Assembly (NCBI GenBank): GCA_020853095.1
Contig: JADYZN010000055.1
Coordinates: 62,001-126,000, forward strand
Direction: 5' to 3'
DNA length: 64,000 nucleotides
DNA from: Phycisphaerales bacterium
GTDB taxonomy: Bacteria; Planctomycetota; Phycisphaerae; Tepidisphaerales; Tepidisphaeraceae
The notes under the pieces were generated by a model. That model was not told the DNA's origin, made no database searches, and was given only the letters and a program-made list of their open reading frames with translations. Positions within the stretch are counted from its first letter, which is position 1; every line of letters begins with the position of its first letter. Below are positions 17,154 to 30,748 of this stretch, piece by piece. The position numbers and the translations under genes were made by a program.

Positions 17154-20100
17154 TTGGGAATAAATTCTATGTCCGAAGATCAGAATCGTGGAATGCCGCC
17201 GGCCGGTGAACAAGCAGGTTCCGCCGCACCCGTGCCGCCAAAGAAAAGGAGATGGGGCCGGCGGATATTGATCGGCCTGGGGGTGGTGGCTGTGCTGCTG
17301 GTGATCCTGGTGGCGCTGGCCCCGACGATCATCAGCACGGCCGTGGTGCGCAGGGTGGTCGTTGGCAAGGTCAATGACAGTCTCAATGGCCAAATCAGCA
17401 TGACCGACTGGTCGATCGGTTGGAACAGCGGGGTGGAGGTGCGGGGGCTGGAGGTCAAAGACGACCAGGGGAATGTCATCCTGAGCGCGCCGAGGGTCTT
17501 TACGGGTTTGTCGCTGGTTGATGCGGCCAAGGGGAATTTTGATCTGGGGACGACCATTCTGGAAAACCCCACGTTTCATCTGGTCATTGATGAGGAGGGG
17601 CGGTTAAACCTGTCCAAGTTGAGCAAGCCATCGGGCCAGGCTCCATCGCAACCGAAGTCGGAAGGTGAAAAAGGTTCGCTGCCCAGCGTCAAGGGGACGA
17701 TCAAGATCGAGAATCCCACCGGCACGGTCGTGGCGGCGGGGATACCGGAGGTTTTGAAACTCAACGGCGGATTGATCACGATCGAGGTTCCCAGTCTCGA
17801 TGGGCAGATCACCGATCAGATCAAGCTGCGTTGCGCGGTGGGGGACCGGCCGGAAGGGACGATCGCGCTGGCCGGCACGGTCAATGCGATGGAGAAGGGG
17901 GAGTTTAATCCACAGGCGGTCAAGGTGGATCAGAAGCTGGAGATTGAGAATCTTGACGCGGCGGCGGTGACGCCGTTTTTGAAACTGGCCGGCGTCGATC
18001 TCAAATTGGCGGGAATGACCGATGGGCAACTGGCGATCAATGTGGATGGGTTGAGCCAACTTTCGGCCGATGGAGAGGTCAAAATCGCTGATTTGTCGGC
18101 CACGGGCGAGGTGTTGAACGGGGACACGGTCGCGACCCGGTCGCTGGTGATTCCGATCCAGGCATCGCGTCAGGGCGGACAGTTGAAGGCAAACATCGGC
18201 CTGAAGATGGATGCGGGGAACATCGCGGTCGCGGTGGATGCGCCGGAGGAATCGTTGCGGCAGGTTGGGCCGCTGATTGCCGATGCGATTTCGGCCACGC
18301 TGAAAGGCATTCCGTCGGCCAATCGGCAGATCGCGGCCATTACCGGCAATGGGATGGTGGAATTGACCGCCGAGCTGGATGTGGCCGCGATCGCCAACCA
18401 GTTGTCCCGCACGATCCAACTGACCGATGGAACCAGGCTGACCGGCGGGCGGTTGTCCCATCAGACGATGGTTCGGATCGTCGATGGCGGGGCGAATCTC
18501 ACCTCCAGCACGAAATTAACCGATACCGCAGGGATCGTGCAGGGTCGCAACGGCACGTTGCAACCGGTGACGTTGGAGGCGACGTTGAAGGCGGCCGGTG
18601 GGCAATCGCCGGAATTAAAGGACATTCAACTCAGGCTCGCCAGCGGGTTTGCGAATCTCAACGCGGGGGGGCCGACGCTGCAAAAGCTGGATGCCGCCGG
18701 ACAAATTGATTTGTCCCACTTTCAACAGGAAGTCGGCCAGTTCGTTCAACTGGATGCGTACCTGGTTCCGGTGCTGGAGAAGCTGAGGGGAGAGTCGATC
18801 GAGGCCGGGCCGGAACGGTCAAAGCTGATTCTGGCGGGCCTGATCGACTTGTCGGGTGGAACCAGCGGCGACTTGATGAAGGCCGATGGCAAGCTGGACA
18901 CCTGGGCGCAGGTGAAGGCTAGTCAGTTGCAAATCACCGGCCTTGGCGAGCGGTATGACATCAATGAGCCGGGCGTGGTGCTGGCTTGTTCGGGGGCGAT
19001 CGAGCGGGGAGATTCGCATAAAGAAGCGATCAACGCGATCCGCAATGCGACGCTGATCCTGAAGCTTGGGCCGTTGGACAATCCCACGGCCGACCTGAAT
19101 GCCACGGCCGACGTGGCGTTGGCTCCATTTGCGCTGCCGCAATGGCAGATCAAGGGGCTGCGCATCTCGCTGGGGGCGGTGCAGAATGAACTGGGGCCGG
19201 TGCTGGCGGCGTTGGACAAGGCGGGATTGCGGTTTGAAGGGGGCCAACTGCTGGTGCAGGGGGCGGGGACGTACAGCGCCGATGGGGCGACGTTCAATGA
19301 TTTGCAAGTCAATCCGGTTGGGGTGGCGCTGGCGAAGATCGAGGAGGGTCAGCGCCGGCCGTTGCTTGAGAATTTTTCGGTGAAACTGGCGACCACGGGG
19401 CAGGTGAATCTGGCCGGCGGGTTGGACGTTCAACTGAAGCAGCTCTCGGTGGACAGCCCGGACCTTTTGCACCTTCAAAAGACCGGTGATGCGGATTTGA
19501 TCGTGAAAATTCCGCAAGGTGGTTCGATTCAACCCAGCGGGAAGCTGCAAATCGCCGCCGATCTGGGGAAGCTGAATTCGATGCTGCGGAAGATTGGCGC
19601 CGGCGAAGTCGTGGCGCAAGGCAGCGCGGGCGAATTGCGCAGCGGCAATCTGGCGGGCATCTTAGATGTGGGTTTGGGACAGGGTTCTCAACTGGCGTTG
19701 TCGGCCGATCTGGAGATCACCCATCTGGGCATCTCCACCCCATCCAGCCCGATCGAGAACCAAACGGTTTCATTGACGCTCAAAGGTTCGGCCGATCGGG
19801 ACTTTTCCACGGTTTTCGCCGATTCGTTGACGGTCAAAAGCTCTTTCGCCAACGCCACCGTGACCGATGCGCGCCTGCGGCTGAAAGACCAGGCCGGCGA
19901 ACCGGTCCCGGCTCTGAAGATGGCGCAACAGGCGAAGATCGCGTTGGATGTGGCCGACCTGCCGCGATTGCAGGGATTGATCGAGGCCTTTTCGCCGCCG
20001 GACGCGGAGGGTTCATCCGCCAATCCCCCCGCGCCGGCGCTGCGGGTGAAACGCGGTTCGCTGTCGGCGCAGGTGGTCGTTTCGCAACAGGGCGATTTGA

Positions 20101-21800
20101 CCGTGGTCGATCTCGCCCCCAAGGCCAACGGCGTGGAACTGGAGCGCGGCGAGGGTTCGTACTCGCTGCGGCCGGTTGATTTGAACGCATCCGTGGCGGT
20201 GTCCGATGCGCAATGGCGAATCACCCGGCTGGAAGGCAGCGCCGGCGTGGCCGCGATTTCGTTGCCCGAACCGATCGTCATCGGGCATGAGGACGGCAAA
20301 CTGTCGGCGTCGGGGATTGTTCAGGTCAATGGAGAACTGGTCGATTTAACGCGGCTGCTGGATGTGTTGCAGGGCAGGCGATCCGCCGGGCAGGCGTATC
20401 GGGGCAAGTTCATGCTGGAGCAGAAGCTGTCAACCACCGGCGGCGCGGTCGCGCTCAACGGGGGATTGAAAATTGAGGACTTCAGTTTTCGCGAGGATGG
20501 CCGCGAGGTGTTGAGCGAGAAGCTGATCACCCTGGCGAACGACCTGTCGCTCGATCCACAGGCCAAGAGCGTCGATTTTCGGACCATCTCGCTGGAGATG
20601 CCCACCAGCAAGGCCCTGTCGCTGAAATTGACCGGCCGGATCGAACAATATGACACCCAACGCACGTTTGATGATGTGCAGGCGGATTTGACCTATGACC
20701 TGGAGAAAATCTGGCGGGTGCTCGGCCCGTTGATGAGCCAACCGGGTGCGAAAAACGACCTGGTATTGGCGGGAACGGCATCCCGTTCGTTTCGCATCAA
20801 TGGGTCGTATCCGGCCGATGTTCCGTTCAATCAGGCCATCCGGACGTTGAAGGTCACCGGCAGCGTCGCGGTGGCGAAATTGGAAACCAAGGGGCTGGAT
20901 TTTCAGGACTTGGACCTGCCCATCCTGTTGAAGGATGGAAAGGTGACGCTGGAATCCGACATCGACGTGGCGGCGTTGCAGAAAAAGCCGATCGCCTCGT
21001 GCAACGGCGGAACCGTCGATTTAAGCGGCATGGTCATCGACCTGTCACAGGAACACCCGCGCATCTCAACGCCCAAAAACCACGTCCTGATCCACGGGAT
21101 GCGGCTGAATCCCATCCTGGCCAATTCGGCACTGGGAGACATCACGCCGTTGTTCGCCGATCCCAAGCAGGTCAACGGCGTCGTCGATTTGACGATCGTG
21201 GAGTGCGAGCAGTTGCCGCTGGACAACCTGCTGACCCAGCAGAGCCGCACCAACACCGGCCGGGCCGAGGTGCTGTTGTCGGTGACGGAATTGAACATCG
21301 TCAACCAATTCGCCAATTTTCTCATGGGAATCTTTGACCAGCAGGCCCTGACCGGCCGGGGATTACAGGGCAACATCAAAGACGCCCGCATCACCCTCGA
21401 AGGGGGCGTCGCCACGCAGGACCTGGTTTTTGAGCTGGGCCGATATCCGCTGGCCTTCAACGGCAAGGTTGGCCTGGCCACTCAGCGGCTGATGCCGATG
21501 AACATCACCTTGCCCCCCACGCTGCTGCGGATGATCGACAAGAACCTGATCAAATACCTGCCCGAGGGGATCGCCATCCCCATCACCGGCACCACCCGCA
21601 ACTTCCAGGTGCAGATCGAACAGGTGATCCCCAACCTGCTGGCCGAAGCCGGCAAGCGCGCCCTCATCGAAGGCCTCGGCGGTAATCGCAACAACCGTGA
21701 TGGCAATGATCAGGCCGACCCCAACCGGCGCAAAAAGGATGACAACAACCCCCTGGGAGGACTTGAAGACCTGTTAAAGGGCAACAAGAAAAAGCAATGA
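17154..21800 (+). CDS. Giant AsmA-like inner-membrane-anchored protein
   Basis: 1548 residues. After a Pro/Lys-rich cytoplasmic start (VPPKKRRWGRR), one membrane span lies at about 37-60. The rest is repetitive beta-rich sequence with alternating hydrophobic residues, as in the AsmA/TamB/YhdP group of bridge-like lipid transport proteins. The first block (MTDWSIGWNSGVEVRGLEV) is a typical AsmA N-terminal unit. The end has a last beta unit, IPITGTTRNFQVQIEQV, and a charged tail rich in Asn, Asp and Lys. It probably spans the periplasm and helps move phospholipid or insert outer-membrane components. TTG 17154 has AGGGG at ideal spacing; ATG 17169 is the alternative, but the ribosome site would then be too distant. 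Confidence 0.8.
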   Translation: MGINSMSEDQNRGMPPAGEQAGSAAPVPPKKRRWGRRILIGLGVVAVLLVILVALAPTIISTAVVRRVVVGKVNDSLNGQISMTDWSIGWNSGVEVRGLEVKDDQGNVILSAPRVFTGLSLVDAAKGNFDLGTTILENPTFHLVIDEEGRLNLSKLSKPSGQAPSQPKSEGEKGSLPSVKGTIKIENPTGTVVAAGIPEVLKLNGGLITIEVPSLDGQITDQIKLRCAVGDRPEGTIALAGTVNAMEKGEFNPQAVKVDQKLEIENLDAAAVTPFLKLAGVDLKLAGMTDGQLAINVDGLSQLSADGEVKIADLSATGEVLNGDTVATRSLVIPIQASRQGGQLKANIGLKMDAGNIAVAVDAPEESLRQVGPLIADAISATLKGIPSANRQIAAITGNGMVELTAELDVAAIANQLSRTIQLTDGTRLTGGRLSHQTMVRIVDGGANLTSSTKLTDTAGIVQGRNGTLQPVTLEATLKAAGGQSPELKDIQLRLASGFANLNAGGPTLQKLDAAGQIDLSHFQQEVGQFVQLDAYLVPVLEKLRGESIEAGPERSKLILAGLIDLSGGTSGDLMKADGKLDTWAQVKASQLQITGLGERYDINEPGVVLACSGAIERGDSHKEAINAIRNATLILKLGPLDNPTADLNATADVALAPFALPQWQIKGLRISLGAVQNELGPVLAALDKAGLRFEGGQLLVQGAGTYSADGATFNDLQVNPVGVALAKIEEGQRRPLLENFSVKLATTGQVNLAGGLDVQLKQLSVDSPDLLHLQKTGDADLIVKIPQGGSIQPSGKLQIAADLGKLNSMLRKIGAGEVVAQGSAGELRSGNLAGILDVGLGQGSQLALSADLEITHLGISTPSSPIENQTVSLTLKGSADRDFSTVFADSLTVKSSFANATVTDARLRLKDQAGEPVPALKMAQQAKIALDVADLPRLQGLIEAFSPPDAEGSSANPPAPALRVKRGSLSAQVVVSQQGDLTVVDLAPKANGVELERGEGSYSLRPVDLNASVAVSDAQWRITRLEGSAGVAAISLPEPIVIGHEDGKLSASGIVQVNGELVDLTRLLDVLQGRRSAGQAYRGKFMLEQKLSTTGGAVALNGGLKIEDFSFREDGREVLSEKLITLANDLSLDPQAKSVDFRTISLEMPTSKALSLKLTGRIEQYDTQRTFDDVQADLTYDLEKIWRVLGPLMSQPGAKNDLVLAGTASRSFRINGSYPADVPFNQAIRTLKVTGSVAVAKLETKGLDFQDLDLPILLKDGKVTLESDIDVAALQKKPIASCNGGTVDLSGMVIDLSQEHPRISTPKNHVLIHGMRLNPILANSALGDITPLFADPKQVNGVVDLTIVECEQLPLDNLLTQQSRTNTGRAEVLLSVTELNIVNQFANFLMGIFDQQALTGRGLQGNIKDARITLEGGVATQDLVFELGRYPLAFNGKVGLATQRLMPMNITLPPTLLRMIDKNLIKYLPEGIAIPITGTTRNFQVQIEQVIPNLLAEAGKRALIEGLGGNRNNRDGNDQADPNRRKKDDNNPLGGLEDLLKGNKKKQ

Positions 21801-21872: not shown

Positions 21873-21945
21873 TGGAGCCGAGCGGGCTCGAACCGCCAAC
21901 CCCCGCGTTGCAAACGCGGTGCTCTCCCAATTGAGCTACGGCCCC
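21873..21945 (-). tRNA. tRNA-Ala (anticodon TGC)
   Basis: The minus strand gives a full cloverleaf of 73 bases without encoded CCA. The acceptor stem GGGGCCG/CGGCTCC includes the G3-T70 wobble pair that specifies alanine. The D arm is GCTC/GAGC, the anticodon arm CCGCG/CGCGG with loop TTTGCAA, and the T arm GGCGG/CCGCT with TTCGAGC. The discriminator base is A. It lies 71 bases downstream of the ESCRT-like operon on the same strand, convergent with the AsmA-like gene. Confidence 0.97.
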
Positions 21946-22016: not shown

Positions 22017-22625
22017 TCAATCCTTCTGTTTGTTGGCGCCCAATTCCCGTGAAATTTCGCTTTCGAGCTGGTCGAGCTTGGACAATTCGGACTTTTCGGC
22101 CGCCAGCACGTCCGCCTGGATCATGCGGTCGATCTCCTCGTCGCTGACCAGGTCCTGTCGGGTCGTGGTCACGCCGCCGGCGATGGCGGATTGCTCCATG
22201 GAATCGAGAAACAGCTCCATGCGTTCCTCGATGCTGCCGGCCTGTGCGACGGCGCGTTCCCACTGGGCCTGGGTCTGCGTCAGGTCCAACTCGCCGAAGA
22301 TGCGGGCGATTTCCTGGGCCATCAGGCCCATTGAGTCGGCGAACTGCTGGCTGGCCTGGGCCTGCTGCTGAATGAGCATGGCGTTCTTGATGGCCAGGAA
22401 CTGCCGTTCGAGCATTTTTTTCACGGCGGCGGTTTTTTTCAGGGCGCTGCGGATGAACTGGTACTGGCCTTCATCGCCGATCTTGCGGGCGTGCTGGGCG
22501 TTGCGGATGAATTCCTCGGAAAATTTTTCCTGCTGCCGGATGGAACGCTCGATGGCGCGCAACCCGGCCTTGATCTTCATTTCCCGTTCGATCCGGCGCT
22601 CGTCTTTGCTTTTGAACAGGCCCAT
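22017..22625 (-). CDS. Small Snf7/CHMP-like (ESCRT-III-like) helical protein
   Basis: 202 residues, almost wholly helical. It begins MGLFKSKDERRIEREMKIK and has a basic first half (QHARKIGDEGQYQF, SALKKTAAVKKMLERQF) and an acidic second half. The order of features resembles eukaryotic CHMP1/CHMP2-type subunits: a basic helical hairpin, a middle helix (GLMAQEIARIFGELDL), a segment ERMELFLDSMEQ, then VSDEEIDRMIQADV and a final amphipathic helix LDQLESEISREL, which occupies the place of a MIM motif. It lacks the PspA/Vipp1 signature near its start. Family assignment is my inference from sequence pattern. AAAGGAATTTCC precedes ATG 22625. It is the last gene of the operon. Confidence 0.6.
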   Translation of the reverse strand: MGLFKSKDERRIEREMKIKAGLRAIERSIRQQEKFSEEFIRNAQHARKIGDEGQYQFIRSALKKTAAVKKMLERQFLAIKNAMLIQQQAQASQQFADSMGLMAQEIARIFGELDLTQTQAQWERAVAQAGSIEERMELFLDSMEQSAIAGGVTTTRQDLVSDEEIDRMIQADVLAAEKSELSKLDQLESEISRELGANKQKD

Positions 22626-22635
22626 GGAAATTCCT

Positions 22636-22761
22636 TTAGCGTATGAATCGGCTTGATCGCACGCGCCGGCACAACCAGCGGATCGGCATCACCAACGCCC
22701 ACATGACCCACTCGGCGGCGTTGTTGCGGTGTAAATTGGAGCTTGGCGTTGACGTGGGCAT
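22636..22761 (-). CDS. 41-residue basic amphipathic small protein
   Basis: A short ORF that fills the gap between two ESCRT-like genes. It starts at ATG 22761, whose A is the last base of the preceding gene's TAA stop (TAATG overlap), and has a perfect AAGGAGG four bases before it. It ends with TAA at 22636, 11 bases before the next start. The product has a polar start (MPTSTPSSNLHRNN), a hydrophobic helix with three Trp (AAEWVMWALVMPIRWLC) and an Arg-rich end (RRVRSSRFIR). That pattern suggests membrane surface binding or a single span. No homologue is recalled. Strong translation signals and position argue that it is real. Confidence 0.6.
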   Translation of the reverse strand: MPTSTPSSNLHRNNAAEWVMWALVMPIRWLCRRVRSSRFIR

Positions 22762-23375
22762 TAAACCTCCTTGTCCATCGCGGCGTTGCGACGGCGGACG
22801 GCTTCATCGGCATCCTTGTACGCCTGATCTTCCTTGACCGCGCCGCGGTCCATGTCGTTCCAGATGTTCATCAGTTCCTGGCCGGCCTGGGTGAGGCCGA
22901 CGTTGGCCAGCGCATCCTTGTCCGACTCAGCGCCCATTTCAAGGATGCCGTCCAGCCTCTGCTGGTACATGTCCTGGCCGACCGTGTCATCCTCGATCCA
23001 CTGGCTGATGCGGGCGACATCCTTGTCGGTGAGATTGAGCCGGCCGAGGGCGCGGCCGCCCTGCTGGTTTTCCTTGATCATCCGCAACCGGCTGACGGTC
23101 AACAGCTCCTTGCTGCGCAGGTTGAGTTCCCGCGCGGCCATGAGCTGTTCCTGGGATTTAAGTTCAAAATCCTGGGCCAGCGCCTTGCGCAACTCGACCG
23201 ATTTTTGCGCCGCGCCCTGCTGGAAGATTTTCTGCTTGGCGGTGGTGATCTCCTCAATGCGGCGAAAGAGGCGGTCGCGCTGTTTGCCGATGAGGATTTC
23301 CTCCTTGCGCAGCTCCTGGCGATCCAGCTCGCTGAGGGTTTTTTTGCGGCCGAAGATTTTGTCGATCAGCGCCAT
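22761..23375 (-). CDS. Second small Snf7/CHMP-like (ESCRT-III-like) helical protein
   Basis: 204 residues. The start IDKIFGRKKTLSELDRQELRK and the continuation KQRDRLFRRIEEITTAKQK resemble the N-terminus of eukaryotic CHMP6 and CHMP4 (a short amphipathic start, FGRKK, then a long charged helical hairpin). The hairpin runs to about residue 105. A looser acidic region follows (LTDKDVARISQWIEDD), then a short helix TQAGQELMNIWNDMD, where CHMP proteins have regulatory helices. No PspA signature is present. Its ATG follows the TAA of the upstream gene with no gap, and GAGGCGGG upstream serves as ribosome site. I infer a membrane-remodelling filament subunit partnering with the other two ESCRT-like products. 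Confidence 0.6.
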   Translation of the reverse strand: MALIDKIFGRKKTLSELDRQELRKEEILIGKQRDRLFRRIEEITTAKQKIFQQGAAQKSVELRKALAQDFELKSQEQLMAARELNLRSKELLTVSRLRMIKENQQGGRALGRLNLTDKDVARISQWIEDDTVGQDMYQQRLDGILEMGAESDKDALANVGLTQAGQELMNIWNDMDRGAVKEDQAYKDADEAVRRRNAAMDKEV

Positions 23376-24848
23376 TTATCCCGCCTCCGGTTCGCTGGAG
23401 GCGGGCCGTTTGGTCGCGGCGGCGGCCGGCGGGGTGGCAACGGGGGCTGATCGTTGGGCCGGCGTTGATTGGGCGGGGGTGGAATTGGCTTGTGGCGACG
23501 CGGGCTGGGATGATTCACGCTCCAGCTCATCGTACAGCGCCTGTTCCTCGGCGCTGAGGCCGGCCGTCGCGGACTGGGCCGCCGTGCCGGCCAGTTCGGT
23601 GTCCGCCTGCAACTGGGCCAGCATCTCCTCGGCCTTGACGGCGTCATCGGTCAATTCCTCGGAATCGGGGAGCTTGGCGGATTGGCCCTGCCGCACCAGC
23701 TCCAGGTTGTGCAGGTGCGTGCTGACGACGTCGATCTGCTGATTGAACACCCCCAGCATCTGCTGGCGGCGCTCCATCTCCTTTTGCAACTGCAAAAGCT
23801 GGCTGGTGACCCGGCGTTTGGTCAGCGGGGCGCGGGCGTCCTTGAACTGCTGTCGCAACTCGGATTCCTTTGCCTCCAGCGCGGACAAATCCTCGTAGGA
23901 CCGGTCGCGCTGCTGGGACAAGGCGGCCCGGCGCTCGGACAACAGGGCGATTTTCTTTTCCGTCTCGCCTTTGCGAGAAAACAGCGTGCGGATGCGTTCC
24001 AGAAACGGCATGTCCGAACCTCCCGTGGAATCGACCGGCGGGGCGGCGGTCCCTTCGCGAAACAGCACCATCCGTCCATCCAGCCGCCTGGCGATCAGGC
24101 CGGCATGGTTGCCGGCGTAACTTTTCAACTCCGCGTCGATCAACTGGATCGGCAGTTGCGTGCGGCCGGCGACTTTGTCGGCCGCGACGCCGCCGCCGGT
24201 CAGTTCGTCGCGGTGGGATTCGATGTCCTGCCGGATGCGCTGGCGCTTGGGTTCTTCGCCTTCGGGGTCGAACAATTCCGACAAGGCCCGGGTTTCCGGC
24301 GGGCCATAGACGTTCCAGCCGCCCGCATCGTTCGGCTCGACCAGGATCAACGTCCGGTCCGCCCGGCGTTCGGCGATTTCGTGCGCTTCGAGCGTAAATC
24401 CGCTGGTGGACATCAGCACCAGCGTCGTCGGTGCGCCTTTCAACGGCGGGGGGATTTCGCCCAGCACCTTGTGAATGTCTCCCGTCTCCATCGGGCGGGG
24501 CGGTTCGCCTTTCAGCAATGCCCTTGTCGGGCTGACGCAGATCACCTTCAGCCGGCCGACCGGTTGGCGCAACAGCAGCAATTTCCGTTTCGCCAGCAGC
24601 ACATCCAGCATCTGCCCGATGGGCATCTTACCTTCCAGCTCGCGGTCGGGCATGCCCGATTCGCCCATCAGACGTTTCAATTCCACCGAATGATCGGATT
24701 GGTTGATGTCGCGAAGCAGCGAACTGACCGGCCGGCGGCCCTGTGCGGTGTCCACCCGCAGCCGTGGATCATCCAGCAGCCCCCGCACGTGGGCGATCAA
24801 TTCCAGTTCACGCTGGCGATGCACCGATGGATCAACGCTGCATTTCAT
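23376..24848 (-). CDS. Large protein: Rossmann-like domain, possible winged helix, ESCRT-III-like C-terminus
   Basis: 490 residues from ATG 24848. Residues 1-100 are helical and charged. Residues about 100-185 form an alpha/beta domain (LKVICVSPTRALL; TTLVLMSTSGFTLEAHEIAE; RTLILVEPNDAGGW) resembling restriction-endonuclease-like folds, though no catalytic QxK motif is seen. Residues about 230-266 (QLPIQLIDAELKSYAG; ARRLDGRMVLFREG) look like a winged helix. Residues 280-445 repeat the small partners' pattern: a short start (LERIRTLFSRK), a long helical hairpin (TSQLLQLQKEMERRQQ) and acidic end helices (SAEEQALYDELERES). A Pro/Ala/Ser-rich tail ends the protein. Winged helix plus ESCRT-III recalls CHMP7. 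It overlaps the preceding 48-residue ORF by 17 bases. Confidence 0.6.
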   Translation of the reverse strand: MKCSVDPSVHRQRELELIAHVRGLLDDPRLRVDTAQGRRPVSSLLRDINQSDHSVELKRLMGESGMPDRELEGKMPIGQMLDVLLAKRKLLLLRQPVGRLKVICVSPTRALLKGEPPRPMETGDIHKVLGEIPPPLKGAPTTLVLMSTSGFTLEAHEIAERRADRTLILVEPNDAGGWNVYGPPETRALSELFDPEGEEPKRQRIRQDIESHRDELTGGGVAADKVAGRTQLPIQLIDAELKSYAGNHAGLIARRLDGRMVLFREGTAAPPVDSTGGSDMPFLERIRTLFSRKGETEKKIALLSERRAALSQQRDRSYEDLSALEAKESELRQQFKDARAPLTKRRVTSQLLQLQKEMERRQQMLGVFNQQIDVVSTHLHNLELVRQGQSAKLPDSEELTDDAVKAEEMLAQLQADTELAGTAAQSATAGLSAEEQALYDELERESSQPASPQANSTPAQSTPAQRSAPVATPPAAAATKRPASSEPEAG

Positions 24849-24978
24849 GCTTCTTGTGCGGCGTCGCGGCAACGACGCCCTCCATGCGCTCTCGATAAAT
24901 CCGCCACCCCATGTACAACCCGACCGCCGCCAGCCACGCCCATCCGGCCACCGAAAAGATGACGTACACCACGGTCAT
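24832..24978 (-). CDS. 48-residue single-span membrane protein
   Basis: A short ORF from ATG 24978 with AAAGGG seven bases upstream, starting 20 bases after the preceding gene ends. It overlaps the start of the next gene by 17 bases. The product has one clear membrane span (VYVIFSVAGWAWLAAVGLYM) followed by a basic segment WRIYRERME and a short polar tail. By the positive-inside rule the tail should be cytoplasmic. Its place in a tightly packed operon with overlapping neighbours supports it being a gene. It could tether the ESCRT-like proteins to the membrane, but this is only inference. Confidence 0.6.
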   Translation of the reverse strand: MTVVYVIFSVAGWAWLAAVGLYMGWRIYRERMEGVVAATPHKKHEMQR

Positions 24979-24998
24979 GCCGGCCCTTTGAACGAAAC

Positions 24999-25925
24999 TC
25001 ACGCCACCCGATCCACCGACGCCCAAAGCCGGCTTCCACAACGCGGGCAGTAATTGGCCGCCATGGAGACCGTCGATCGGCAGACCGGATTGTCGCAGCG
25101 CCGTCGCAGCATCACCGGCGTCGGCAGCGACATCGTCGGATGTCGAAGGCTCAACATCGCCCGCAACCGTTCGGCGACCATGCCGCGCATCCGCCGGCCG
25201 GTGGACAGAACATACCGGCGTTGCAGCGCCCCGGCCAGCATCATCGGCAATCCCCATCCCGCGCCCATCACCGTCAGGACGATCCCCGCCACCAGCCACA
25301 TCGGCCTCAATCCCCATCCGCCGGCGGGGGTTGGCATCGGACCGAATCCTTCGCGCTGAGCCAGCGAGTTGATCTGCCCGATCAACCGCTCGGTGGCTCG
25401 CACGTGCAGCGCCACGTTCAGCCAATGCACCAGATATCCGACGCCCAGTCCGATGGTCCAGATTGTAAATAAGCGGGCGGTCAACGGGCTTTGTCCGCCG
25501 CGATAGGTGGCGCCCATCAACATGGCCCACGAAAACTGCCCGTGCAGGTGCAGGAAAAACGCCCAGATCACGCCAACGCCGCACACCAGCGAAATGCTCC
25601 GCAGCAGCAATCCCTTGTCCGTTCGTGGAATCCACCTGGCCAGCTCGGCCGACTCGGGATAGCCACTCCGCAGCCGCAACCATTCGGCCAGATGCTCCCA
25701 CTGGACGCTCTCCGCACGGGCCAGGTCTCCAAATCGTTTGATCCATTCAAACAGCGGCCACAGGCCAAAGCTCATCACCCCCAGCAACACCGTCCGCGCC
25801 AGCCCCCACATCCCTTTGTCCGGCATCGGCCGGCTGAGACTGTACAACAGCGCGCCCGCCAACCGATCCGGTTCCGCCGAGTCGGCTTGGCCATGCGTCG
25901 GATTGTCCAATGAAATCGCCGTCAT
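24999..25925 (-). CDS. Multi-span membrane protein with C-terminal zinc ribbon
   Basis: 308 residues. Hydrophobic spans are visible at about 42-60, 107-127, 152-172 and 208-232, separated by charged loops. The C-terminus, after basic segments, carries a zinc ribbon with Cys277 and Cys282 (spacing CX4C) and Cys293 and Cys296 (YCPRCG). The neighbouring 94-residue protein has the same unusual CX4C...CX2C ribbon. I do not recognise a named family. The ribbon probably faces the cytoplasm and binds protein or nucleic acid. It starts 12 bases after the preceding gene. Confidence 0.7.
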   Translation of the reverse strand: MTAISLDNPTHGQADSAEPDRLAGALLYSLSRPMPDKGMWGLARTVLLGVMSFGLWPLFEWIKRFGDLARAESVQWEHLAEWLRLRSGYPESAELARWIPRTDKGLLLRSISLVCGVGVIWAFFLHLHGQFSWAMLMGATYRGGQSPLTARLFTIWTIGLGVGYLVHWLNVALHVRATERLIGQINSLAQREGFGPMPTPAGGWGLRPMWLVAGIVLTVMGAGWGLPMMLAGALQRRYVLSTGRRMRGMVAERLRAMLSLRHPTMSLPTPVMLRRRCDNPVCRSTVSMAANYCPRCGSRLWASVDRVA

Positions 25926-25937
25926 CGGTCCTGATTT

Positions 25938-26222
25938 CTAAAACATCGCTACCCGTTTCATTTTAACCTGCTGAGCCACCTCCAGCGCCATGCCGCATCG
26001 CGCGCAAAACCGCGCCTGGGCGGGATTGGCATGGCCGCAGCCCCGCCGTGAACAGACCCGCATCCCATCCGTTGGTTTGCGGGATGATTTTCGTTTGATT
26101 CCCATCAATCCCAGCACCATTTTGGCCAGCATCATGATTGCCCAAGCGCCAAACACCGCCACCGCGATCACCAGGATCGCGATGCAGACCAGCAGCGTGA
26201 GAATGACTTCACCGAGCATCAT
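25938..26222 (-). CDS. Small membrane protein with zinc ribbon
   Basis: 94 residues. The first 40 residues form one long or two short hydrophobic helices (VILTLLVCIAILVIAVAVF; AIMMLAKMVLGLM). A basic linker (KRKSSRKP) follows, then a zinc ribbon with Cys57, Cys62, Cys73 and Cys76, sharing CX4C-X10-CX2CG spacing with the C-terminus of the 308-residue neighbour. The basic linker places the ribbon in the cytoplasm. No specific family is recognised. It begins only 6 bases after the kinase stop, so coupling with kinase translation is likely. Confidence 0.7.
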   Translation of the reverse strand: MMLGEVILTLLVCIAILVIAVAVFGAWAIMMLAKMVLGLMGIKRKSSRKPTDGMRVCSRRGCGHANPAQARFCARCGMALEVAQQVKMKRVAMF

Positions 26223-26228
26223 GGGTTG

Positions 26229-27251
26229 TTACGCCAGCGCCGTCCTGGGGGACAGGGTCTGTCCACAAAACATACAATATCCATCGGAAACATCGGGGTA
26301 AGCGCCGCATTTTGGACATTTCCGAACGTGGGCCACCAGTTGCAACCCGCAATACATGCAAAACTGGTCATCCGGCCCGATCCCGTGGCGGCAATTGGGA
26401 CACAGTCGTCCGTTACCGTGCGGTTTGGGCAGCGGCGGGGGGTGCGATGGCGAAATCGCCTCGGCAAATTCCCGTGCGGATGTAAATCGTTTGTCCAGCC
26501 GCGCATAGGCACGGCGGAATACATCGTCCATGTATTTGGGAATGGCCGGGTTCAGGTCGGTGGGCACTTCGGTGCCGGCCGGTCTTTCGCCGGTCAGCAA
26601 TTCAAAAAATACCACGCCACAGGCATATAAATCCGTTCGCGGATCGGTGGTATCGCCGGAGCGTTGTTCGGGAGACATGTAATCCAGCGTGCCGGCGATG
26701 CTGCGGGCGGCGGAGGATTCCAATGAGGCCGAATAGACCATTGATCCAGTCCGTGTGCCGGCGGCCGCTCGACCGAATCCGAAGTCGGCCACCTTGACCA
26801 TTCCCTGCAACCCGTATCCCTGTCGGCCGGCCGATTCATGCACCAGGATGTTTTCCGGCTTGATGTCGTGATGCACGATTCCCCGCGCATGCGCATATTC
26901 CAGCCCCGCCAGCACCTGTGCCATGATCGTCGCCGCATCGGCCGGGACAAGTGAATGATTCTTGATCATCGGCCGCAAGCTGGTTCCCGCGACGTATTCC
27001 ATGGTCAGATAAGGAGTTGCGGCGTAAGGATCAAATCCGATTGCTCGGACGATGTTGGGGTGGATCAATCCATGCACCGCCAGCCCTTCGCGTTGCAGAT
27101 TGCGCACGTATTGCGGGTCGGTGGGGATTTTGATCGCCACCCACTGATCCGACCAGACATGGTGATGGGCTTTCCAGACCTCGCCAAAGGTCCCCTGGCC
27201 CAGCCGTTCGGTCAGGCAATATTCGCCAATTCTCTGGCCGTTTTCCGGCAT
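26229..27251 (-). CDS. Hanks-type Ser/Thr protein kinase with two C-terminal zinc ribbons
   Basis: 340 residues, no membrane span. The kinase domain (about 8-265) has the Gly loop RLGQGTFGEVW, catalytic Lys41 in VAIKIP, catalytic Asp129 in HHDIKPEN (His replaces the usual Arg of HRD), DFG at 156-158, and SPEQ of the P+1 loop. It should be active. After a Pro-rich linker (PSHPPPLPKP) come two zinc ribbons: Cys284/287/298/301 and Cys312/315/326/329. Most bacterial kinases of this class carry membrane anchors and sensor domains instead, so the ribbons may recruit it to neighbouring membrane proteins with ribbons. It likely regulates the rest of the operon's products by phosphorylation; this is inferred from context. 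Confidence 0.9.
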   Translation of the reverse strand: MPENGQRIGEYCLTERLGQGTFGEVWKAHHHVWSDQWVAIKIPTDPQYVRNLQREGLAVHGLIHPNIVRAIGFDPYAATPYLTMEYVAGTSLRPMIKNHSLVPADAATIMAQVLAGLEYAHARGIVHHDIKPENILVHESAGRQGYGLQGMVKVADFGFGRAAAGTRTGSMVYSASLESSAARSIAGTLDYMSPEQRSGDTTDPRTDLYACGVVFFELLTGERPAGTEVPTDLNPAIPKYMDDVFRRAYARLDKRFTSAREFAEAISPSHPPPLPKPHGNGRLCPNCRHGIGPDDQFCMYCGLQLVAHVRKCPKCGAYPDVSDGYCMFCGQTLSPRTALA

Positions 27252-27259
27252 GGTTTACC

Positions 27260-27652
27260 TCACGCCGCCTTTTCGGCGATCCAGTCACAGGACAACAGAT
27301 TATAGACACCCGCGAAGAGGGTTCCGATGGTCGCGAACGTCCAGGCCGTCGGTCCGGGCAAGGTCCATCCGAACAGCCATAACAGGATGACCCCTTCCAA
27401 CAGCGTGTATCCGAGCACCAGCAGGCCGCCGGCCAGGTTGCTGTCCATTTTCGCCACCCGGCCGATGACAAAAAACGTCGCCCAAGGCCACAGCAGCACC
27501 CCCAGCAGCCAGCCGATGATTTTTCCGGTCCCGGCCACCAGGTCGTGGCGGACCGATTCATCCATCCGCCACCACGAAATGGCCCCCGCCACCACGGCCA
27601 ACGCCAGCGCGGCCGACAATACCTTCCCGACGGTGCTTTTCAGGAATTCCAT
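27260..27652 (-). CDS. Small four-span membrane protein, first gene of the ESCRT-like operon
   Basis: 130 residues from ATG 27652. Hydrophobic segments lie at about 8-27, 45-64, 72-95 and 103-120. Between them are short loops with few charges. I do not recognise a family. It lies 8 bases before the kinase start and heads a series of nine closely spaced genes. TACAAT on the minus strand (27667-27662) ends 9 bases before the ATG and no Shine-Dalgarno sequence is present, so the operon mRNA may begin at the start codon. The -35 region is poor, which lowers confidence in that promoter. The longer frame from 27736 has no support. Confidence 0.65.
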   Translation of the reverse strand: MEFLKSTVGKVLSAALALAVVAGAISWWRMDESVRHDLVAGTGKIIGWLLGVLLWPWATFFVIGRVAKMDSNLAGGLLVLGYTLLEGVILLWLFGWTLPGPTAWTFATIGTLFAGVYNLLSCDWIAEKAA

Positions 27653-27760: not shown

Positions 27761-28849
27761 TCAACGATATCGGCCAAACTCCATCGCGGCGTCGTACATC
27801 GCCAGGACGTTTTCCGTGGGGGAATTGTCTTGCAGACAATGAGTTGGCGCCAGGCAATAACCGCCGCCGGGCATCATGGTTTGGAGGGTCTGGCGGACGT
27901 CGTCGCGAACATCTTGTGCCGTTCCGCAGGCCACCGGCCCGGCAGTGGAGATGCAACCGTGGAAGGTGAGCCGGTCTCCCCATCGTTTTTTCAGATAAGA
28001 TGGAGACATGTTCGCCGCTTCAGGCTGGAGCGTGTCGATGGCGGTGATGCCCAATTCGAGAAATTCATCGAACGCCCAACTGCTTGACCCGCAACTGTGC
28101 ATCATCACGGGGATGTTCCAAGCCCGGGCCAAGTCCACGTATCGTTTGTGACGGGGTTTGAGAAAGCGCCGGTAGCTGTCCATGCCGATGACCGGGCCGC
28201 GCTGGGTTCCCAGGTCTTCGCCGATCCAAAGGAAATCGACCCGGCCGTTCGCCAGGGACAGTGTTCGTTCCAGTTCCCCGATTTGCACGTCGATCCGGCG
28301 GTCCACGAAATTCTGGAGGGGCGAATCGGGGTCGATGATCTCCATCAGCGTTTGTTCGACGCCCATCAACATGCCGCAGAAGTTCAGGATGTCGGCTGAT
28401 CCTGGCCCGCCGATGTAAATCGCCTTGTCGGGATGGGAGCGGCAGACCTGCTGGACGATGGAATAATCGTAATCATCCGGCGAGGGCATGGGCCAGTGTT
28501 CAAATGCTTCGGCCGGGGCATCCATCAGGGGAAAATCACAAAAATCCCAGTAACCGCCCGATTCGTGTTCAATCCACTGTGTTCGTCTTCCCCAGGCGGG
28601 ATCGACCTGCCGGTCGGGCACTTCCGCATGTAGCCGCCTTCCGTTGTACGGCAGCCAGATGCCGCGAAAATCGATTTCCAGCCTCTGGCGCAAACCCTCC
28701 TCATCATCGGAGGCCAGCCCAAAGTGTTTTTTCATGCGTTGGTTCAGGCCGGGATTGTCAAAATAATGCAAAGGAACCCGGTCAGGTTCCTGGTGGGCAA
28801 AGGCGAGCAGGGTGCGCTCACGGGAGGTGCAGGGGGTCTTGTTGGCCAT
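27761..28849 (-). CDS. Uroporphyrinogen decarboxylase-like (URO-D) protein
   Basis: 362 residues from ATG 28849. The fold is that of URO-D and of MtaA/CmuA-type methyltransferases: SRERTLLAFAHQEPDRVPL at the start, VDFLWIGEDLGTQRGP, a His/Cys pair in PVMMHSCGSSS, TLQPEA, and HGCISTAGP near the end. The true haem enzyme has an N-terminal Arg-rich substrate loop (FMRQAGR) that is absent here, so haem synthesis is unlikely. Such paralogues near PhyH and AraC genes are common in Planctomycetes and Lentisphaerae, and may act in C1 transfer or catabolism of methylated compounds. A 14-base tandem repeat lies directly before the start. It is probably cotranscribed with PhyH. Confidence 0.85.
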   Translation of the reverse strand: MANKTPCTSRERTLLAFAHQEPDRVPLHYFDNPGLNQRMKKHFGLASDDEEGLRQRLEIDFRGIWLPYNGRRLHAEVPDRQVDPAWGRRTQWIEHESGGYWDFCDFPLMDAPAEAFEHWPMPSPDDYDYSIVQQVCRSHPDKAIYIGGPGSADILNFCGMLMGVEQTLMEIIDPDSPLQNFVDRRIDVQIGELERTLSLANGRVDFLWIGEDLGTQRGPVIGMDSYRRFLKPRHKRYVDLARAWNIPVMMHSCGSSSWAFDEFLELGITAIDTLQPEAANMSPSYLKKRWGDRLTFHGCISTAGPVACGTAQDVRDDVRQTLQTMMPGGGYCLAPTHCLQDNSPTENVLAMYDAAMEFGRYR

Positions 28850-28850
28850 G

Positions 28851-28878
28851 GTGGTTTCCCGTTGGTGGTTTCCCGTTG
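28851..28878. repeat. Perfect 14-base tandem duplication
   Basis: GTGGTTTCCCGTTG occurs twice in a row (28851-28864 and 28865-28878) in the gap between PhyH and the URO-D-like gene. It duplicates the bases directly before the URO-D-like start codon and keeps the 42-base frame in step, so an alternative start at 28885 would read through it. Confidence 0.8.
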
Positions 28879-28881
28879 TTG

Positions 28882-29823
28882 TCAACAGATTCGTCGTTTC
28901 GGCTGCGCGTGAGAGTCATCCCATGGGATCAATTTCAACGGCAAATCCTTCCAGTACCATTTCAGTTGATCGCTTTTCCAGTTCGCATAAATTTCCTCCC
29001 AGGTCAGTTCGCAATGCGGATTGAGGGAATGTTCCTCGATTGGCTCGTCGACGCTTTGGTATCGAACATCCAGCGACAGCCGGATCATCCGGGGGACCGT
29101 GCATCGGAGCGCTTTGTGGACGGTCAGGCTGGGAAAGGTGATCAGGTCGCCGGCCTGATAGTCGCCGCGTGCCCAGGCGTTTTCGCCGGGACACAACTGG
29201 ACGGCGATCCCTCCGGCGCCTTTGACGTGTTGGAAGGGGATCACACCGTTGCGGTGCGAATGTCGCAGGATCGTCAGTCCGCCGTGGGCTTGAGGGCAAT
29301 CGCCCAGCGGGATCCAGCAGGTCCAGGTGCCGGTGGTCCCCTGGATCAGTGGAAAGTCCTGATGTGGCGGCGTGGGGGTGATGAGGCGGTGTCCGGTGAT
29401 CATCCGGGCGATGTGCCGGGGATGGACGAAAACATCACGATCAAACAGCAAACGATAAAGCGCCAGTAGCTTTGGATGATGCGGCAGGCGATGCAGTGAT
29501 TCGAGCCGCTGCACATCCTGGTAGGCGTCGATGCTGACGCCGATGTCGGCGCGCATTTGTTCATCGGGAACACGGTTGATCGCATCGAGGTCGATCAGCC
29601 CGCCCATCGGATCCTGGCCGGGCTGGCGCCAGCCGTGGCGTTCGACCACTTCAAGCATTTTCGCTCGCAGGCCCAGTACATCCTCCGGCGGTAGATACCG
29701 ACGAAAATACAGGAATCCATCCTCATCGGCCCTTTTCAGCAACCGGTCGCGGCTGGAAAGCAACGGCGTCGAATCGATGAATGGAATTTCTGATCCGGCC
29801 TCTTGGTTCTGTGGCGTTTCCAT
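28882..29823 (-). CDS. Phytanoyl-CoA dioxygenase (PhyH) family protein
   Basis: 313 residues from ATG 29823. Non-haem Fe(II)/2-oxoglutarate oxygenase fold. The metal triad appears as His and Asp in TPPHQDFPL and a distal His in TVHKALR. DGFLYFRRYLPPEDV near the start is typical. The Arg that binds 2-oxoglutarate is probably in RMIRLSLDVRYQ. The family hydroxylates varied small molecules, and the substrate cannot be named. It lies upstream of the URO-D-like gene on the same strand and diverges from an AraC-type regulator 34 bases away, which probably controls both. A longer frame reaches 29922 but would overlap the divergent gene. Confidence 0.85.
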   Translation of the reverse strand: METPQNQEAGSEIPFIDSTPLLSSRDRLLKRADEDGFLYFRRYLPPEDVLGLRAKMLEVVERHGWRQPGQDPMGGLIDLDAINRVPDEQMRADIGVSIDAYQDVQRLESLHRLPHHPKLLALYRLLFDRDVFVHPRHIARMITGHRLITPTPPHQDFPLIQGTTGTWTCWIPLGDCPQAHGGLTILRHSHRNGVIPFQHVKGAGGIAVQLCPGENAWARGDYQAGDLITFPSLTVHKALRCTVPRMIRLSLDVRYQSVDEPIEEHSLNPHCELTWEEIYANWKSDQLKWYWKDLPLKLIPWDDSHAQPKRRIC

Positions 29824-29857
29824 GTCAATATTGGAACGTTCATGCAAGGCGTTGAAC

Positions 29858-30748
29858 ATGGCTCGCAGTCGACAAAACATGGATAAAACCATCAAATGCT
29901 CCCCGGTCATCGTCCTGGCCAACTGGTATCAGTTCGCGCCGGCGGAACGGGCGTCGCGCACGAGGGTCGAAAGCCGGATGTTGTTGTGGTGCCGGCTGGG
30001 GCGGGGTCGGTTGCGGATCAATGGAGAACAGATGGTCTTTCTTCCGGGGGATTGGGCGCTGTTGCCGTGGCATCATCAAATTGAATATGAGGCGGATGGG
30101 GAGCATCCGTTTCTCGTTGGCGGCATACACCTGATTCCATCGCACGATGAGCGCGTGCCGGTTCGATTTCACGCCGTTCACAGGACCGACGATGCCGATG
30201 TCGATCTTCCCGGCCGGCGGGATCGACGGATCAGGGGGCTGGATGGGATTTTGCGACGGCGATTTCATGCCCGGGGCGATCCATTGCAGATGTTGGCCCA
30301 TTATGTTGTGGAGTGTTTTCAGCGTTCCATGCCGACCCGGCCTTTGATGACCCATCTGGCACACATCCTGATGGATGAATTGGTCCGGGCCGTTCTATCG
30401 CGACCCGCGGATGAACTTCAACCATCACCGACCATGCAACGTCTGCGGGATTTTGTGGAAGCGAATCTGGATCGATCGTTGTCCATTGAAGACCTCGCCA
30501 GGTCGGCGGATTGCGGCGAGGCGACCGTTTTTCGCGAATTTCGTCGCCACGTCCGATTGTCTCCGTGCCGTTGGATCGCCCAGCAACGCGCCAGGCGGGC
30601 CGCCATTTTGCTGAGGACGACGACTTTGTCGGTCAAGGAGATCGGCCGGCGGGTCGGGTTCGTGGATGCGTTGCATTTTTCCCGGCGGTTCAAACGTGAA
30701 ATGGGGGCGTCGCCCCGCGTTTACCGGCTCAGCAAACTGGTGCTGTAA
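29858..30748 (+). CDS. AraC-family transcriptional regulator
   Basis: 296 residues. The N-terminal half has a cupin-like sensor segment (RLGRGRLRINGEQMVFLPGDWALLPW). The C-terminal 100 residues are two helix-turn-helix motifs of the AraC/XylS type: SIEDLARSADCGEATVFREFRRHV and SVKEIGRRVGFVDALHFSRRFKRE, ending GASPRVYRL. Such regulators usually activate an adjacent catabolic operon on binding a small ligand. Here the divergent PhyH and URO-D-like genes are the obvious targets. Either ATG 29858 or ATG 29879 could be the start; neither has a clear ribosome site. The frame further upstream lies within the PhyH gene and is not used. Confidence 0.9.
   Translation: MARSRQNMDKTIKCSPVIVLANWYQFAPAERASRTRVESRMLLWCRLGRGRLRINGEQMVFLPGDWALLPWHHQIEYEADGEHPFLVGGIHLIPSHDERVPVRFHAVHRTDDADVDLPGRRDRRIRGLDGILRRRFHARGDPLQMLAHYVVECFQRSMPTRPLMTHLAHILMDELVRAVLSRPADELQPSPTMQRLRDFVEANLDRSLSIEDLARSADCGEATVFREFRRHVRLSPCRWIAQQRARRAAILLRTTTLSVKEIGRRVGFVDALHFSRRFKREMGASPRVYRLSKLVL

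Follow-up and report, generated by a model that had tools for sequence, protein, structure and literature searches.

The window analysed here is a stretch of 64,000 nucleotides (contig JADYZN010000055.1, positions 62,001 to 126,000) from the planctomycete Phycisphaerales bacterium, whose genome assembly (GCA_020853095.1) is 3.6 Mb and 96% complete. Nine open reading frames (ORFs), g1 to g9, run along the minus strand from 27652 to 22017 and are separated, from g1 to g9, by 8, 6, 12, 20, -17, 0, -1 and 10 bases (Table 1). Their number, order and spacing agree with the initial annotation of this DNA, made from the sequence alone, which had described nine genes on one strand spaced by -17 to +20 bases. 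The operon most likely encodes a membrane-remodelling system of the endosomal sorting complex required for transport III (ESCRT-III) type, a lineage-specific version of an ESCRT-III and AAA-ATPase system that is scattered through the Planctomycetota. This proposal is founded on the homology of g9, the predicted fold of g6, the linkage of g9 to ATPases and the domain make-up of one of these, AAA1.

Constraint on the genes was estimated as the ratio of nonsynonymous to synonymous substitution rates (dN/dS) against a relative of the same genus (L001). The lowest ratio, 0.03, belongs to g7 and g9; g1, g2, g4 and g6 have values of 0.07-0.13, g3 has 0.26, and g5 and g8, the smallest genes, have about 0.5. 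Constraint is thus strong on the large ORFs and weak on g5 and g8. Relatives within the window's family have the same gene order, g1 to g9, and the g6-g7-g8-g9 portion recurs in L073, a genome of 7.19 Mb in a single contig; therefore, the operon is not an assembly artefact. The 17-base overlap of g5 and g6 (24832-24848) may serve translational coupling.

A single-sequence search with g9 reached CHMP3 at E 0.02. When a profile of 43 g9 homologues was run against the whole PDB, the first matches were yeast SNF7 (1e-4) and human CHMP3 (7e-4). At E<=0.01, 22 of these 43 sequences match the Pfam family Snf7 (PF03357), the best at 2.7e-6, and among 14 control genomes this family is matched in only one (Sulfolobus); PspA_IM30 (PF04012) is not among the seven Pfam families matched by these homologues. 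The AlphaFold2 model of g9 (predicted local distance difference test score, pLDDT, 74) consists of helices at residues 7-49, 52-110, 116-148 and 162-200, which correspond to the ESCRT-III layout of an a1-a2/3 hairpin, an elbow, a4 and a C-terminal helix (a5), behind a short hydrophobic start, MGLFKS. Foldseek ranks 1-7 with this model are all ESCRT-III proteins (CHMP2A-CHMP3, CdvB, IST1-CHMP1B, Loki CHMP4-7), and about half of the top 50 are ESCRT-III, Vipp1 or PspA. The C-terminal helix is conserved, and a consensus of the MIT-interacting motif (MIM) is not clear in it by eye. By sequence comparison and in its predicted fold, g9 is confirmed as an ESCRT-III protein of the Snf7/CHMP type rather than a PspA. 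PPR matches of g9 in the PDB were rejected as an effect of composition, since no stretch passes alone. A copy of g9 83% identical to that of the window was seen on a 3.2 kb contig of a metagenome-assembled genome named Gemmatimonadaceae (L011), probably a misplaced contig.

The AlphaFold2 model of g6 (pLDDT 86) has an alpha/beta domain in residues 1-265 that ends in a winged helix, for which Foldseek found the winged helix of RPC39 at prob 0.96 and AF1382 at prob 0.9. After a linker come a0 (282-291), a hairpin (296-337 and 341-386), a4 (396-423) and a5 (433-447), followed by a disordered tail. This C-terminal domain (g6C; a0-a5, residues 282-447) has the ESCRT-III helical layout, as described for Vipp1 and CHMP1B (PMC8281802). 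Its Foldseek matches include Vipp1, PspA, CHMP1B and an Asgard ESCRT-IIIB at prob 0.2-0.7, without significance. The g6C sequence matched neither Snf7 nor PspA, nor any other Pfam family, and it is therefore named ESCRT-III-like by layout only. Outside the window's family, most loci encode the two halves of g6 as neighbouring separate genes, and L081 has them fused; at some loci the N-terminal half (g6N) bears an extra helix-turn-helix of the MerR type. The conserved end of the g6 tail (-EPEAG) was considered as an MIT-binding motif and rejected. The same bases, GGAGGCGGGATAAATG, are likely the ribosome-binding site of g7, and the tail is therefore not to be read as a protein motif. This likely site lies in the 3' end of g6 (GAGGCGGGATAAATG, 23375-23390).

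The next gene, g7, is present in 21 of the 26 genomes of the window's family and as two tandem copies in some classes; its sequence has no Pfam or PDB match. Global hhalign of g7 with g6C gave P 7.8e-5 over 184 columns at a probability of 33%, and the g7 profile finds g6C members at 3e-4 as compared with 0.07 for reversed sequences. These comparisons suggest that g7 is probably a paralogue or other relative of the helical domain of g6, and the evidence for its being an ESCRT-III protein is only suggestive. A joint alignment of the g6-g7 read-through frame as one structure was dropped, as MAFFT laid the helical domain of g6 on g7. Three ESCRT-III-like products had been proposed in the initial annotation. 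The assignment of g9 to the Snf7/CHMP family, as CHMP-like and not PspA, is borne out; that of g6 stands at the level of fold and lacks a Snf7 or PspA match in sequence; for g7 there is the weak global link to g6C, and the Pfam, PDB and g9 comparisons gave no match.

The kinase g2 matches Pfam Pkinase at 5.2e-42 and the double zinc ribbon (DZR) family at 1.2e-7 (32.2 bits, cut-off 27.3), and carries the motifs LGQGTFGEV, VAIK, HHD in place of HRD, and DFG. The zinc ribbon of g3 scores 21.6 bits with DZR, below the Pfam cut-off, as does that of g4; CxxC pairs are visible in both. By hydropathy, g1, g3, g4 and g5 contain membrane segments and g8 has none. A Hanks kinase with two zinc ribbons, four membrane proteins and a soluble basic protein of 41 residues had all been predicted and are recovered here, and the zinc ribbons predicted in two of the membrane proteins are supported by their CxxC pairs, with sub-threshold Pfam scores. 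Relatives of g1 in other classes are about 290-330 amino acids (aa) long, lie beside a Ser/Thr kinase gene and share the last ~85 residues; a profile built from the family alone matches L083 at 2e-11, and also L079, L102, L099, L100 and L080. A g1-type gene and a kinase are also found downstream of AAA2 (see below) in several distant loci. Thus, the pair of membrane protein and kinase is an old part of the system.

Table 1. Genes of the operon, its surroundings and related features at other loci (window coordinates unless a locus or contig is given; TM, transmembrane).
Feature	Position	Strand	Description
g1	27260..27652	-	130-aa membrane protein, ~3 TM segments (hydropathy)
g2	26229..27251	-	Hanks-type Ser/Thr kinase with C-terminal double zinc ribbon (Pfam)
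g3	25938..26222	-	94 aa; one TM segment, then zinc ribbon; family-specific (hydropathy, recurrence)
g4	24999..25925	-	308-aa membrane protein, C-terminal zinc ribbon; family-specific
g5	24832..24978	-	48-aa single-TM peptide; 17-base overlap with g6; weakly constrained
g6	23376..24848	-	490 aa; alpha/beta domain with winged helix, ESCRT-III-like helices, disordered tail
g7	22761..23375	-	204-aa charged helical protein, highly conserved
g8	22636..22761	-	41-aa basic soluble peptide; family-recurrent, weakly constrained
g9	22017..22625	-	202-aa ESCRT-III protein, Snf7/CHMP type
tRNA-Ala	21873..21945	-	Just past g9
DUF748 gene	17154..21800	+	Large AsmA-like protein, convergent with the operon
URO-D-family and phytanoyl-CoA dioxygenase-family genes	27761..29922	-	Upstream of the operon, likely a separate unit
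AAA2 orthologue	G000 contig 40, ~80246-81394 (L110:5249-6394)		Window's genome, other contig
600-700-residue protein	L083:10471-12411, L084:6245-8254, L102:6714-8633, L101:5678-7579		No significant Pfam match

The distribution of g9 was followed in 392 Planctomycetota genomes drawn across the phylum. It occurs in 56 of these and Vps4_C in 48, and 37 genomes have both, where 6.9 would be expected (P 5e-28); where they share a contig, they mostly lie on the same strand within ~1.6 kb. Among 24 loci outside the window's family that were read in detail, 23 encode one AAA ATPase or two, next to g9 or close by: 17 loci have AAA1 upstream of g9, and 14 have AAA2 downstream. AAA1 has a length of about 410 residues. 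A profile of 13 sequences of its N-terminal ~90 residues gave VPS4A/B MIT domains as the top seven PDB matches (E 2.6e-4); Pfam MIT on single AAA1 sequences was not significant, one of six giving 0.21. With the AAA domain of AAA1, VPS4B scores 171 bits, katanin 169 and the best single Cdc48 domain 136; the domain carries the motif ATNRPWDLDxAVLSRFEKKILIPLP, with RFEK where Cdc48 has RPGR. A Vps4_C end is present in 16 of 17. Judged from these sequence comparisons, AAA1 comprises a VPS4-like MIT domain, an AAA domain of the meiotic clade and a Vps4_C end. AAA2 has a Cdc48-type AAA domain with the RPGR motif; its N-terminal domain is MIT-like in size and position, and a profile of these N-termini finds no MIT in the PDB. 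A vps4 gene and an ESCRT-III gene in one locus, the criterion of Makarova et al. (2024), are thus present in Planctomycetota outside the window's family. Across the phylum, the full order of nine genes is not maintained. What is conserved is a core of g6N, g6C, AAA1, g9, AAA2, g1 and a kinase; g7 recurs in some lineages, and g3, g4, g5 and g8 appear to be specific to the family. In several distant loci, the gene of a 600-700-residue protein, which may be a further component, separates the g1-like gene from AAA2 (or g9). An SPFH/Band_7 match in L099 was discarded, as it arose in a frame overlapping the likely gene, which itself gives no match.

The window's lineage differs in its ATPase complement. 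Operons of this lineage lack an ATPase gene; the window's genome gave no match to Vps4_C, contains no orthologue of AAA1, and carries on another contig an orthologue of AAA2 that scores 367 bits to the AAA2 of L085. The AAA2 orthologue is present in 18 of the 26 family genomes and tends to occur with g7: 17 of the 26 have both AAA2 and g7, four g7 only, one AAA2 only and four neither (P 0.02). It stands alone, with no neighbours common to most of its loci. The AAA2 encoded in trans is a probable partner of the window's operon. On the simplest reading, the family would have lost AAA1 and would have AAA2 in trans, its winged-helix and ESCRT-III-like genes would have become fused, and membrane proteins with zinc ribbons would have been gained beside the kinase. 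L081, from another class, has a second version without an ATPase; its g6 is fused, a gap the size of a gene precedes g9, and two kinases lie downstream.

From these data we infer polymerisation, the action of the ATPase on a filament and membrane remodelling, as well as the targets of the kinase, the cargo and the cellular process served. g9 would be the filament subunit, with the short hydrophobic segment at its N-terminus attaching it to the cytoplasmic face of the membrane and the helical hairpin serving for polymerisation. With its winged helix and ESCRT-III-like domain, g6 could act as nucleator, linker or partner subunit, and g7 is probably another filament subunit. ATP-driven disassembly or remodelling of the filament would fall to an AAA ATPase whose N-terminal domain is MIT or MIT-like; in most relatives this would be the enzyme encoded beside g9, and in the window's lineage the orthologue of AAA2 on another contig. 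The membrane proteins may recruit the system, and those with zinc ribbons may, together with phosphorylation by the zinc-ribbon kinase, control its placement and timing. The regulated membrane-remodelling machine suggested in the initial annotation is a reasonable inference, and it is strengthened by the AAA ATPases, one of them Vps4-type, that lie beside g9 in relatives. A link to the invaginated membranes of Planctomycetes, also suggested there, may exist.

Several observations weigh against this interpretation. The window's own g9 falls below the Pfam Snf7 cut-off, and Foldseek E-values for the g9 and g6 models exceed 0.1, as is usual for long helices. Alignment of g9 with g7 or g6C by hhalign gave no sequence link. 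The window's operon contains no ATPase gene, so that vps4 and ESCRT-III do not share a locus there, and the AAA2 in trans has an N-terminus that is MIT-like by size and position only and an AAA domain with the Cdc48-type RPGR. A rival reading is a divergent envelope-stress module of the phage-shock (PspA/Vipp1) type, in which the coiled coils stabilise stressed membrane, the kinase and zinc-ribbon membrane proteins form a plausible sensor, and neither fission nor ATPase-driven remodelling takes place in this lineage. PspA_IM30 has no match in the window's genome (nine of the 14 control genomes match), so another protein may take the role of PspA; the fold of g6C is most like Vipp1/PspA; and no ATPase is linked in the window. 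The g9 sequence, however, matches Snf7/CHMP and not PspA, its relatives are linked to Vps4-type ATPases, and no PspB, PspC, PspF or LiaI-type gene is found in the operon; such a module is considered unlikely. Weak Foldseek E-values, the lack of a Pfam family for g7 and g6C, and the tendency of coiled coils to yield spurious matches such as those of g9 to PPR could also be attributed to generic coiled-coil scaffolds of a kinase signalling complex that resemble ESCRT-III through heptad-like composition. This is very improbable, as independent homologues (22/43) match Snf7 specifically and co-linearly, ESCRT-III proteins make up nearly all of the best fold matches of g9, and linkage of g9 to MIT-Vps4 ATPases is unexpected from composition.

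The phylum is best known for its internal membranes and its lack of FtsZ. At the threshold used, the FtsZ/tubulin family was matched in six of the 392 Planctomycetota genomes as against 13 of the 14 control genomes, and neither in the window's genome nor in any of the 56 genomes with g9. As PspA also has no match in the window's genome, g9 is the only ESCRT-III-superfamily gene recognised there, in a genome without detectable FtsZ. A role for g9 as the phylum-wide replacement of FtsZ was rejected, since FtsZ is missing nearly everywhere and g9 is found in 56 of 392 genomes only; with so patchy a spread, g9 cannot be the general division machine of the phylum. We put forward tentatively, as possible rather than probable, that Planctomycetota carry a complete ESCRT machinery (Snf7-type ESCRT-III, a winged-helix ESCRT-III partner, MIT-Vps4 and a regulatory kinase) that carries out division or the formation of internal membranes in some of these FtsZ-less members and that may be ancient in bacteria or derive from an early exchange with archaea. 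The combination of ESCRT-III and Vps4 is regarded as having arisen in archaea and eukaryotes, with PspA/Vipp1 as the main bacterial relatives. A locus in bacteria that unites a Snf7-type protein, a partner with a winged helix and an MIT-Vps4 changes the known range of the complete machine and bears on its origin. The system also offers a concrete candidate for explaining two features of planctomycetes, the shaping of their membranes and their mode of division.

Similarity to eukaryotic CHMP proteins (SNF7/CHMP4, CHMP3) is detectable for g9 by both sequence and fold. In CHMP7 a winged helix stands before the ESCRT-III core, and g6 likewise has a winged helix preceding its ESCRT-III-like core. 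Unlike the eukaryotic proteins, identity is low, g6 has an extra alpha/beta domain and no ubiquitin-sorting partners were seen. PspA and Vipp1 (PMC8281802) share the layout of a0, hairpin and a4-a5, and g6C matches the Vipp1 fold; they differ in that g9 has no PspA_IM30 match, psp or lia partner genes are absent and the linkage is to a Vps4-type ATPase.

Bacterial Snf7-clade proteins, some associated with AAA+ ATPases, have been described by Ravi et al. (2024, PMC11237479), together with transferred VPS4-like genes at which snf7 is replaced by an unrelated TPR/6TM gene; Planctomycetes are not mentioned in the main text of that paper. The present system resembles those cases in having bacterial Snf7-like or VPS4-like genes, and differs from the VPS4 cases in that Snf7-like and MIT-Vps4 genes stand side by side in Planctomycetota. 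No report of an ESCRT or Vps4 system in Planctomycetes/Planctomycetota was found in open-access titles and abstracts, a scope outside which preprints and most subscription papers lie. According to the survey of Makarova et al. (2024, PMC10936438), ESCRT-III with Vps4 is confined to archaea and eukaryotes, and loci of the main archaeal ESCRT clade comprise Vps4, ESCRT-III, a winged-helix protein and a membrane Ser/Thr kinase. The planctomycete system differs from these in its bacterial host, in the two different AAA ATPases that can flank g9 and, in the window, in the fusion of the winged helix to an ESCRT-III-like domain and the zinc ribbons on the kinase. It shares with them an ESCRT-III gene, a winged-helix partner, a Ser/Thr kinase, zinc ribbons and, in the window's relatives, an MIT-Vps4-type ATPase, and the parallel in the winged-helix protein and the membrane Ser/Thr kinase is striking.

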